From Thermococcus sp. (lineage in GTDB: Archaea; Methanobacteriota_B; Thermococci; Thermococcales; Thermococcaceae), in NCBI RefSeq assembly GCF_027052235.1, contig NZ_JALUFF010000015.1:1-55553 (forward strand): a stretch of 55,553 bases of DNA. The letters are read 5' to 3'. The translations under genes were made by a program, and so were the position numbers. Below the pieces are notes generated by a model. The model did not search any database and was not told the DNA's origin. It saw nothing but the letters and a program-made list of their open reading frames with translations. Shown piece after piece: positions 36,102 to 39,320 of this stretch. The stretch's first letter is position 1; each line of letters opens with the position of its first letter.

Positions 36102-36926
36102 TTAGCCCTTCCCCAGAAGGATTCCTCCCACGATGAGGCAAAGCCCGAAGACCGTTGAGGCCTCTATCCTCTCCCCCACCGCCAGCGAGATGAAGAAAAG
36201 GCTCAGGAAGGGCACGAGATAGGCCAAATTCGAGGCGAACTCCATCTCATCCTCTATAGCTCTGTACCAGATGAGGAAGGTAACGCCCATCTCGAATAGG
36301 CCGACGTAAACCGCTCCGATAAGACCTTTAAGGGGCGGAAGGGTAAGCCCGCCCGAGAAAGCCAAAGCTAGAAAAACGTAGGCGGAGCCGAAGAGGAAGT
36401 TCCAAAAGGTCTTCTCAACCAGAGGTCTATCATCCTTAAGGTTCAGCACCCAGTAGGAGGCCCATATCACCGCGCTCCCGAGGGCTAGGGCAACCCCGGC
36501 TGGATTCGAGAAGTCCAGCCCCCTCAGGTTTCCCCTCGTGGCCACGATAAAGGCACCAAAGAAGCCGAGGAAGAGCCCGGTAACCACCCTTATTCCGGGC
36601 CTCATCCCGAGGAGCGGAACCGAGAGAAGGACGAGCATCAGAGGCCAGGTGTAGTTCAAGGCCTGCGCCTCCTGAGCAGGAAGCATGTCATAGGCCGAGA
36701 AGAGGACGGTGTAGTAGAGAACAAGGAGAAGGCCGAGGTAGGCCGAGCGGAGGTTCTGCCTCCTTATAGAGAACTCGCGGGAGTGGAGTATTCCAAAGAC
36801 TACGAGGGAAGTTAGAGAGGCGTAGAATAGCAACTGGAGTGGTGTCAAATACCTCAGCGAGAGCTTGAAGGCGGAAGCGACAGTTGACCAGAGGAGCACC
36901 GCGAGGAGAGCGTGCCTTTTGGGCAT
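36102..36926 (-). CDS. EamA/DMT-superfamily transporter
   Basis: A 274-residue hydrophobic protein with about ten transmembrane helices in two similar halves, the pattern of the drug/metabolite transporter superfamily (EamA). The first half begins AVLLWSTVASAFKLSLRYLTPLQLLFYASL and the second ALGSAVIWASYWVLNLKDD, both with the conserved 'W' and small residues of EamA repeats. Substrates in this family range from amino acids to nucleotide sugars and are not predicted here. The start ATG is at 36926; a TATA-like GATTTTTATTCC overlaps the end of the ATPase gene upstream. Confidence 0.83.
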   Translation of the reverse strand: MPKRHALLAVLLWSTVASAFKLSLRYLTPLQLLFYASLTSLVVFGILHSREFSIRRQNLRSAYLGLLLVLYYTVLFSAYDMLPAQEAQALNYTWPLMLVLLSVPLLGMRPGIRVVTGLFLGFFGAFIVATRGNLRGLDFSNPAGVALALGSAVIWASYWVLNLKDDRPLVEKTFWNFLFGSAYVFLALAFSGGLTLPPLKGLIGAVYVGLFEMGVTFLIWYRAIEDEMEFASNLAYLVPFLSLFFISLAVGERIEASTVFGLCLIVGGILLGKG

Positions 36927-36956
36927 GTCTGGAGATGGAGCGGGAGGAATAAAAAT

Positions 36957-38036
36957 CTATCCGCTCTCCTTCAGAACCCGCTCAATGACCGGGTCAACTA
37001 TGCGGTACCTCCTCCTGCCATCCACCCATTCCCTAACTATCCAGCTCATCTTTTCCAGGCTGTCCAGGAGTTTTGCAAGCCTCGCCTTTGGGACTTCCTG
37101 CCCCTTTACGGCTAAATACTCCCTGAGGAGCTCCCAGCGGTTGTAGCCTTTTGCGATGCCCTCAAGGATCAGGACGTAGCGGGGACTTCTCCTTTCAAGT
37201 TCTTTGAGCTCTCCCCTGAGGAAGCCTTCGGCCCTCTTTAAGACGCTCTCAATCGCGGATTTAAGGTTCCTCTCCCTGATATAAGCCCTCCCAAAGTCCA
37301 CAAGCCAGCCAGGGATTCCGTCAAGGACTTCAACTGCTCTTTCAATGTCCATCATCGGAACTTCAACACCCGCCTCCGCGAAGCCCTGTTTCAGGAACTC
37401 GACGGAGAGACTTCTCGAAAAGGGCATCAGCCTTACTTCCCCGTAGCTCCTTCCGTAAAGGGGGCTCTCGTACTCGTCAAGGCCGAGGAAGTCGTGGAGG
37501 AGACCGACCTCCGAACCCGTCAGGATGAACCTGAGGTTCTCAAGGTTATCATAGGCATAGGCAAGGAGTGCTAAAAACTCCCGTCCCCCGCGGGAACCGT
37601 AAAAGCGGAGGTATTGGGCCTCGTCCACACCTATAACAGCCCCGACCTCATTAAGGGCCTCAAGGACGTCGGAAATTTGAAGGGATTTCTCGAACCTGAG
37701 CTCAATCCCCTTCACTCTCACGCCCCTAACGGTCTTCATGGCCTCGATGAGGATGCTTCTAAAGTCCTTGCCCAGGGAGTTGAGGGCCCTCTCAAGCTCC
37801 CTCCTCAGGGAATCCGCCGTTATCCAGCCACCTGAATCGAAGTACATTTTCCTGGCGTCTATGTAAACACCACTCTCAATCTCGTTGAGCGTTGCCCTCA
37901 GGAGGGAGCTTTTACCAACCCTTCTTATCCCGAGGAGGAGCGTTAAGGGCTCATCAGCTGATAAGAGTGCCTCAAACTCTTCTCTCCTATCGAATAACTC
38001 CTCAATGCTCCTCTTAGGCCTCGGGTCGAACAGCAT
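36957..38036 (-). CDS. Archaeal AAA-type ATPase (PF01637-like)
   Basis: The 359-residue protein has a P-loop GIRRVGKSSLL (about 36-46), a Walker B GVDEAQYLRFYG (about 135-146), a sensor-like FILTGSEVGLL (about 170) and a C-terminal winged-helix region (about 270-359). This is the standard set-up of the large 'archaeal ATPase' family, which lies near STAND and Orc/Cdc6 proteins and occurs in many paralogues in Thermococcales; its role is unknown. The start codon follows directly two inverted repeats (38038-38074) that hold its ribosome site. No partner gene is coupled to it. Confidence 0.8.
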   Translation of the reverse strand: MLFDPRPKRSIEELFDRREEFEALLSADEPLTLLLGIRRVGKSSLLRATLNEIESGVYIDARKMYFDSGGWITADSLRRELERALNSLGKDFRSILIEAMKTVRGVRVKGIELRFEKSLQISDVLEALNEVGAVIGVDEAQYLRFYGSRGGREFLALLAYAYDNLENLRFILTGSEVGLLHDFLGLDEYESPLYGRSYGEVRLMPFSRSLSVEFLKQGFAEAGVEVPMMDIERAVEVLDGIPGWLVDFGRAYIRERNLKSAIESVLKRAEGFLRGELKELERRSPRYVLILEGIAKGYNRWELLREYLAVKGQEVPKARLAKLLDSLEKMSWIVREWVDGRRRYRIVDPVIERVLKESG

Positions 38037-38037
38037 A

Positions 38038-38074
38038 GGTAACGCCCCCGTTACCAGGTAACGCCCCCATTACC
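38038..38074. repeat. Two tandem 18-bp inverted repeats at the ATPase start
   Basis: GGTAACGCCCCCGTTACC (38038-38055) and GGTAACGCCCCCATTACC (38057-38074) are separated by one base. In the first, the 7-bp arms GGTAACG and CGTTACC enclose CCCC; the second has one mismatch. They fill the space between the TATA box of the ATPase (about 38073-38081, minus strand) and its ATG at 38036. The only G-run able to serve as ribosome site (GGGG on the message) is in the hairpin loop of the first repeat. Confidence 0.8.
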
Positions 38075-38123
38075 TATAAGCCTTTGGGCGTGCGAGAAAA
38101 CATGAGAGAAAAGAATGGGGAAA

Positions 38124-39320
38124 TCACTCCTCCCTGAAGGCGCCGTACTTCTTGGGGTCGTAGAAGGGAGGAGTAACCGTTACCGCTTTCCTGAGCTTGC
38201 CCCTTATCTCGACCTCGATTTCCACGCTCGGTTTCGCGTATTCCGGCTTCACGAAGGCTATTCCAATCCCTATGCCGAGGAGTGGTGAGAGGGTTCCGCT
38301 CGTTACCTCGCCTATGAGCTCGCCGTTCGCGTAGACTTTATACCCTTCCCTCGGAATTCCCCTGTCGACCATCTTGAAGTGCACCATCTTGCTCGGAAGG
38401 CCTCTCTCCTTCTGCTTCAGCAGGGCTTCTTTCCCTATGAACTCCTTGTCCCAGAATATTGCGAACTCAAGGTTGGCCTGGAGAGGGGTTACCTCGTCGA
38501 TGTCGGTGCTGAGGAGTTGCTTTTCTTTGGTCTCGTTTCCGTAGAGGGTGTAGCCGGCCTCAAGGCGGAGGGTATCTCTCGCTCCCAGTCCAGCGGGCTT
38601 TATGCCGTACTTCTCTCCGGCCTCAAGGATGGTCTTCCAGACGTGGAGGGCCTTCTCCGGCTCGCTCCTCTTGGCCGGATCCGGGTGGTACGGGTTGGCG
38701 TCCTCGAAGTAGACCTCGAAGCCGTTCTCGCCCGTGTAGCCGCTCCTCGAGAGGAGCATCTTTATCCCGTCGAGCTCGACCTCCTTCGCCTGGAACCACC
38801 AGAGGTCATTGATGTCAATTCCGAAGAGGTCTTTGGCGAGGTCTCTAGCTTTAGGCCCCTGTATTGAAAACATCGCCATGTCGTAGGTCTTGTTCTCTAT
38901 CTCAAGGTCTATCTCGCCGAACTTCTCTATTCCGCGCTTTATCGCGTTGAACCATGCGTCGAGCTTCTCGAAAGCGTCGCTGTCACAGACCATCATGTAG
39001 GTGTCGTTCCCGAGGTTGAAGACAAGCGTCTCGTCCTTAACTGCGCCTCTCTCGTTGAGGACGAGGGTGTAGGTTCCGCTTATTGCGGGAGGCTTCCTTA
39101 TGTCGTTGGTTGTGACGTACTGGAGGAACTCCAAGGCGTCTTTACCGCGGAAGAAGATTTCCCCCATGTGGGAGACGTCGAAGATTCCGACGCCGTTTCT
39201 GACAGCCAGATGCTCCTCCTTTATGCTTGAATACCAGATGGGCATCTCCCAGCCCGCGAACTCCTCAACCTTCTTCGCGTGCTTTTTATGCCAGTCGAAG
39301 ATGTGAACCCTCTTGACCAT
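38124..39320 (-). CDS. gcvT: Glycine cleavage system T protein (aminomethyltransferase)
   Basis: A 398-residue protein matching GcvT along its whole length: [25 protein letters not shown], the [14 protein letters not shown] loop that contributes to folate binding, [15 protein letters not shown] (about 203) and the C-terminal barrel with [13 protein letters not shown]. The conserved Asp in the T-site ([13 protein letters not shown], about 255) is present. It transfers the aminomethyl carbon of glycine to tetrahydrofolate. ATG 39320 follows GGTGAT. No gcvP or gcvH is seen in the window. The next gene upstream is an ABC permease. Confidence 0.95.

Follow-up and report, generated by a model that had tools for sequence, protein, structure and literature searches.

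The two tandem palindromes between the TATA box and the start codon of a Thermococcus ATPase gene are most likely the operator of that gene, bound by the winged helix of its own product in a negative autoregulatory loop; from comparative sequence analysis we put the probability of this reading at roughly 0.86. The gene encodes a winged-helix protein and carries a palindromic site over its own promoter, an arrangement that is kept in orthologues. The evidence consists of the architecture of the element, its conservation, the matching of half-sites to protein clades, the covariation of one amino acid with one base, and the constraint on the Shine-Dalgarno (SD) sequence, all of which are seen directly in the genomes compared. 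The layout and the clade-specific half-sites, which change with a single amino acid, indicate a family of self-controlling switches that is large and apparently undescribed.

The element and its gene

The stretch of DNA analysed here (the window, 55,553 bases) contains the following features, all on the minus strand.

36957..38036, minus strand: archaeal STAND-type ATPase of 359 aa, with a P-loop NTPase, a helical lid and a C-terminal winged helix
36999..37184, minus strand: C-terminal winged-helix domain (residues 285-346), proposed to bind the operator; from the structure model and PF21100
37050..37088, minus strand: recognition helix (residues 317-329); from the structure model and the covariation of residue 317
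37086-37088, minus strand: codon of Lys317, at the N terminus of the recognition helix; the residue varies together with half-site base 2
38034..38036, minus strand: ATG start codon, 1 bp from the proximal repeat; the aligned start is kept in relatives
38038..38055, minus strand: start-proximal palindrome GGTAACGGGGGCGTTACC, half-sites GGTAAC/GTTACC
38044..38049, minus strand: SD-like ribosome-binding site GGGGGC, the centre of the proximal palindrome; from the G-rich centres of relatives and the GGDGRD consensus
38050..38062, minus strand: inner inverted pair GTTACC-T-GGTAAC with a 1-bp linker, the spacing that varies least in the family
38057..38074, minus strand: distal palindrome GGTAATGGGGGCGTTACC, located between the TATA box and the predicted start site
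38074..38081, minus strand: TATA box GCTTATAG, whose final G is the first base of the distal repeat

Read on the minus strand, the order is GCTTATA-GGTAATGGGGGCGTTACC-T-GGTAACGGGGGCGTTACC-T-ATG, and the repeats fill the interval between TATA box and ATG, with single bases as joints. The 18-bp repeats are 95% identical to each other in a 19-bp register. Allowing up to 3 mismatches, they are the only two copies in the window, against a mean of 0.03 in 100 shuffles, and a general scan of the 55,553 bases found one array of tandem inverted repeats of this geometry. In the whole source genome, no further copies were found at up to 1 mismatch, and the count of 2-mismatch matches is not far above that of a reversed-pattern control. 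A sequence-only reading had described two 18-bp repeats spanning the interval from TATA box to ATG, the first able to form a 7-bp hairpin with a GGGG loop that holds the only SD-like sequence; these claims are confirmed: the array is unique in the window, the proximal repeat has the complementarity for a 7-bp stem closed by a GGGG loop, and the sole SD-like stretch is GGGGG. What is conserved as a dimeric unit may instead be the inner pair GTTACC-T-GGTAAC, not each 18-mer: no spacing in the family varies less than the 1-bp linker, and some clades keep the inner pair alone. Operator and ATPase gene lie directly 3' of gcvT and 5' of an EamA-family transporter gene (window 36102-39320), and this gene order is kept among orthologues.

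The protein matches PF01637 (4e-18, 66.4 bits versus a curated cut-off of 33.2) and, at its C terminus, the winged helix PF21100 (1e-11). An AlphaFold model built from 22 family members reached a pLDDT of 94.4, and its winged helix comprises helices 285-295, 301-310 and 317-329 and strands 333-338 and 341-346, with a beta wing at 333-346. Two solved relatives, 2QEN (5e-104) and 2FNA (6e-59), share the fold with TM scores of 0.90 and 0.86 over the query; the distant matches beyond them are Orc1/Cdc6, Apaf-1 and CED-4, of which Orc1/Cdc6 is the next best (TM 0.42-0.48). This score is too low for a close match to an Orc1/Cdc6 initiator, and the elements lie in promoters of ATPase genes. An hhGRExE-type N-terminal motif, Walker A and Walker B are present (LFDRREEFE, GIRRVGKSS and VIGVDEAQ), and R17, E20, G41, K42, D138 and E139 are invariant among 22 diverse members. 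At the place of the GxP motif, expected at the end of the NTPase module, the window protein reads DGIPGWL, and the Pro is Val in many members. A search with PADLOC gave no specific anti-phage defence model over the full length, only weak matches (best 1e-6, PDC-S27), and no convincing NCBIfam family was found for the ATPase.

Conservation of the layout and clade-matched half-sites

Family relatives were found in 59 of 61 genomes of the genus searched, often with 5-15 matches per genome. Across about 160 genes from Thermococcaceae and Thermoproteota, palindromic half-sites fill the space between TATA box and start codon in nearly all cases, usually with the geometry h-6-h'-1-h-6-h' and within the range h-(5-7)-h'-1-h-(5-7)-h'. 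We read 117 upstream regions and found, almost without exception, inverted half-sites running up to the start codon, with letters that differ by subfamily. Within the genus the half-sites are GGTAAC, AGTATC, ACTTAC (in two clades), ACTTGC, ACTATC and AGTTCC, and there are two fused forms, ACCAGT-A-ACTGGT and CATAC-AGTATG. A strict definition (score of at least 15) finds tandem inverted half-sites directly before the start codon of 97 of 116 relatives versus 0.5% of dinucleotide shuffles, and most of the remaining relatives have a fused inner palindrome. A 19-bp period is present in 94/116 relatives, and the inner linker measures 1 bp in 135 of the 145 relatives with a detectable inner pair. 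The sequence-only reading had proposed a search for the repeat upstream of orthologues; the layout is present there, as it is before distant paralogues, and the absence from orthologues that would have refuted the reading was not found.

The half-site classes coincide with well-supported protein clades: on a 109-sequence tree there are 13 label changes compared with 66 after shuffling, a count inflated by one label that lumps the two ACTTAC clades. In other genera of Thermococcaceae the same half-site goes with the same protein subfamily. Thermoproteota have the same layout with further half-sites, and 91% of their 35 loci score above the 99th percentile of shuffles.

Several variants of the arrangement were observed. 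At one AGTATC-class gene (L025:1405-1500) the 18-bp palindrome occurs four times in tandem, not twice. A distant PF01637 relative in the source genome (L130; G000:C76, upstream of 22940) is preceded by a row of three palindromes (TTTACAT...ATGTAAA); the last of them extends past the first ATG into the coding sequence. Four PF01637 proteins of about 460-470 aa from the source genome (L133, L135, L138 and L139) share a stretch resembling CGAGTATTATAC before their start codons, which is possibly another type of self-operator in a sister family.

Covariation of residue 317 with half-site base 2

Residue 317, with which the recognition helix begins, follows the second base of the half-site. All 47 genes with Lys or Asn have G there and all 80 with Asp or Glu have C, and one further gene has Gly; for fused half-sites and a few weak ones the assignment was made from the pattern or by inspection. 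Reading of G by Lys/Asn and of C by Asp/Glu is chemically ordinary. When each family was left out in turn, residue 317 was the best predictor of base 2 among all 359 columns (0.92; next 0.81), and its shortfall from 1 is the share of residues unseen in training. The same analysis over protein columns gave no convincing column for half-site positions 4-6. A tree of 69 representatives was computed with the winged helix left out; on it, base 2 and residue 317 each change 5 times, and the two switch together in 4 of 4 well-supported independent pairs; the sign test (p = 0.125) is not significant alone because the events are too few.

Apart from three AGTTCC genes, Thermoproteota served as an out-of-sample test of the rule. 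Automatic calls there gave D-C 14 times, K/N-G 12 times and D-G twice, and both D-G exceptions (L277 and L279) are mis-phased, the sequence reading ACTGGT, that is, C. The recognition helix as a whole was rejected as the top covarying window, ranking 37 of 330 in a window-based partial-distance analysis in which residue 317 alone stands out. Deep clade structure confounds the signal of the helix beyond this residue, and since the partial correlation does not single out the whole helix, the covariation claim rests on residue 317.

The ribosome-binding site, the transcription start and a possible RNA element

On the coding strand, all 105 tandem-type genes have a G-rich centre in the proximal palindrome, whereas the distal centre is G-rich in 29/105, C-rich in 24/105 and self-complementary in 37/105. 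Predicted pairing with the anti-SD sequence averages -7.8 kcal/mol for the proximal versus -2.8 kcal/mol for the distal centre. Given this difference in G-rich centres, the proximal site is, by its sequence, also the presumptive ribosome-binding site, and the earlier claim that the repeats hold the ribosome site was right. In four gene-less operators (L171, L176, L259 and L260) the proximal centre has no G-run, so the centre seems to be kept for translation only where there is a gene to translate.

In T. kodakarensis, transcription starts about 23 bp after the TATA box, the median leader measures 16 nt and the consensus of the ribosome-binding site is GGDGRD (PMC4247193). Of 129 relatives, 108 have 38-42 nt between TATA centre and start codon, and this spacing combined with the ~23 bp rule places the predicted transcription start inside the proximal left half-site, at about 38050-38052, with a leader of about 16 nt.

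The sequence-only reading had also offered an RNA element, in which one or two hairpins with the SD in the loop would control translation by their opening, as a thermometer, a riboswitch or a protein-bound leader. The 7-bp stem of the proximal repeat with its GGGG loop (-10.1 kcal/mol at 37 °C) and the central position of the SD in the proximal palindrome of all tandem-type relatives speak for it, but the distal repeat is equally palindromic although it lies upstream of the predicted transcription start. Stem mismatches of the G-T and A-C types are about equally frequent (9 vs 7 in the distal and 11 vs 10 in the proximal repeat), as expected of a DNA palindrome, and a leader of ~16 nt removes part of the left arm of the hairpin. 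At 85 °C the full stem folds with -0.8 kcal/mol and truncated leaders with 0, a search of Rfam gave no match, and the covariation of the half-sites with residue 317 of a DNA-recognition helix also counts against an RNA element. Mismatch types, leader length, folding from 37 to 85 °C and Rfam thus all fail to support this part of the earlier proposal, and we consider control by RNA improbable. A cis-regulatory RNA of the riboswitch or thermometer type was rejected as a candidate on the lack of a G-U preference, the truncated leader, the instability at 85 °C and the empty Rfam search.

Operators without genes and other explanations

In at least 20 genomes the operator is present and the ATPase gene is absent. 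At the gcvT locus, which was compared in 30 genomes, the gene or its remnant occurs with the operator in 10, the operator alone in 4, and neither in 16. Ten genomes share an operator-only gcvT-EamA locus (L157, L158, L160, L161, L163-L167 and L169), in which the operator is followed by a conserved stretch of about 60 bp (AAATTTTATTCGG...AAATCGCTGAATTTATAT) before EamA, and in eleven genomes an AGTATC operator remains beside the place where the gene once was. Decayed gene-less operators are under-counted because most were found by pattern search. These operators may reflect recent gene loss, a second binder, or use by a neighbouring promoter. One genome, G015, keeps an operator and has no detected family protein; there, a perfect palindrome GGTATCGGTACCGATACC stands beside a degenerate partner (L171:2000-2035). 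The source genome itself carries a broken AGTATC-class copy (L068; G000:C27:57746-58812), in which the gene is divided between two frames and a short insertion interrupts the operator.

The persistence of operators in genomes without the cognate ATPase, and in G015 without the whole family, is what would be expected if the palindromes served one or several unrelated DNA-binding proteins instead of the ATPase. Such a reading needs a different regulator for each clade, matched across genera and phyla, and the half-sites covary with the recognition helix of the ATPase itself; moreover, most gcvT loci without the gene are also without the operator. We give control by another regulator little credence. 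It is likewise improbable that the ATPase recognises the repeats for a purpose other than transcription, for example at an origin-like or remodelling site or at the end of a mobile unit. The resemblance of its fold to archaeal Orc1/Cdc6, the patchy presence of the gene and the decayed or lost copies that leave the operator behind agree with that idea, but the element sits between the TATA box and the start codon of one gene with an SD built in, there are several different elements per chromosome, the gcvT-ATPase-EamA order is conserved among orthologues and no second end was seen. The mobile-element version was rejected, as the searches found no viral or phage relative and only one remote plasmid relative (26% identity), and no flanking ends were seen.

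Proposed mechanism and significance

The sequence-only reading had suggested a tandem operator for a dimeric regulator, perhaps the ATPase itself, and this suggestion is strongly supported by the repeats of orthologues and paralogues, the clade-matched half-sites and the pairing of residue 317 with base 2. Binding by the ATPase, repression and ligand control are what we infer from these comparisons. In the proposed mechanism, two ATPase dimers, or one dimer and flanking half-sites, would use their C-terminal winged helices to engage the four half-sites, and base 2 would be read by residue 317, the first of the recognition helix. Once bound, the protein would occlude the TATA box, the transcription start and everything up to the start codon, and this cover is proposed to block transcription initiation; what relieves or sets the repression would probably be the state of the STAND-type ATPase domain, defined by its nucleotide or by a signal. 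Operator and translation signal would thus be packed into one 18-bp element, and clade-specific half-sites could allow several copies per genome to control themselves without crosstalk.

A regulon search with the GGTAAC and AGTATC elements in 61 genomes returned, among the hits checked, family genes, gene remnants and gene-less former loci. Two further hits, of one lone sequence, GTAACGGGGGCGATAC (L172 and L174), are probably due to chance. A broader proposal, to which we assign somewhat less than an even chance, is that hyperthermophilic archaea harbour orthogonal, self-addressed STAND switches, where each of several paralogues in a genome reads a private four-half-site operator that includes the ribosome-binding site and is essentially confined to its own promoter, has itself as sole transcriptional target, and gains new specificities by paired changes such as those of residue 317 and half-site base 2. 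If so, these ATPases would be sensors, not regulators of other genes.

PF01637 ATPases are much expanded and unexplained in Thermococcales and many Thermoproteota, with structures solved and no function found. The clade-matched operators give a first handle on the role of their winged helix and come with a simple residue-base rule. They make the question of function tractable, as it becomes a question of what relieves self-repression, and they are a natural source of candidate pairs of repressor and operator, mutually orthogonal and able to work in hyperthermophiles. In the literature searched, which left out most subscription papers, no published description of matched self-operators was found, and their novelty in PF01637 ATPases is provisional.

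Comparison with known systems

The closest known proteins, PABY2304 of P. abyssi (2QEN) and SSO1545 of S. solfataricus (2FNA), belong to the same PF01637 family and have the same full-length fold with a C-terminal winged helix; in the structural match they are 52% and 35% identical to the window ATPase, respectively. No operator, DNA target or function is given for either in the literature searched, and the matched operator is, as far as that literature goes, new. Archaeal Orc1/Cdc6 proteins also combine an AAA+ module with a winged helix and are a distant fold match; they differ by the low TM score and by the location of the sites described here, which lie in promoters of ATPase genes.

Autoregulatory operators of archaeal and bacterial repressors place palindromic half-sites over the TATA box and start site of their own gene. 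The window system resembles these in its palindromic half-sites over the promoter of a gene with a winged-helix product. Unlike them, it has an AAA+/STAND ATPase as the regulator, four half-sites with a 1-bp inner linker, an SD inside the proximal palindrome, several orthogonal paralogues per genome, and no regulon beyond the gene itself in the two half-site classes searched.

The mycobacterial IniR is a STAND-like ATPase that acts as a transcription regulator; its ATPase domain was modelled on SSO1545, with 15% identity, and its C-terminal domain was likened to SdiA (PMC5760070). By analogy, IniR is a precedent for a STAND-like ATPase as transcription regulator, with the difference that it regulates another operon, iniBAC, through this C-terminal domain (PMC5760070), whereas the ATPase described here is proposed to control its own gene.
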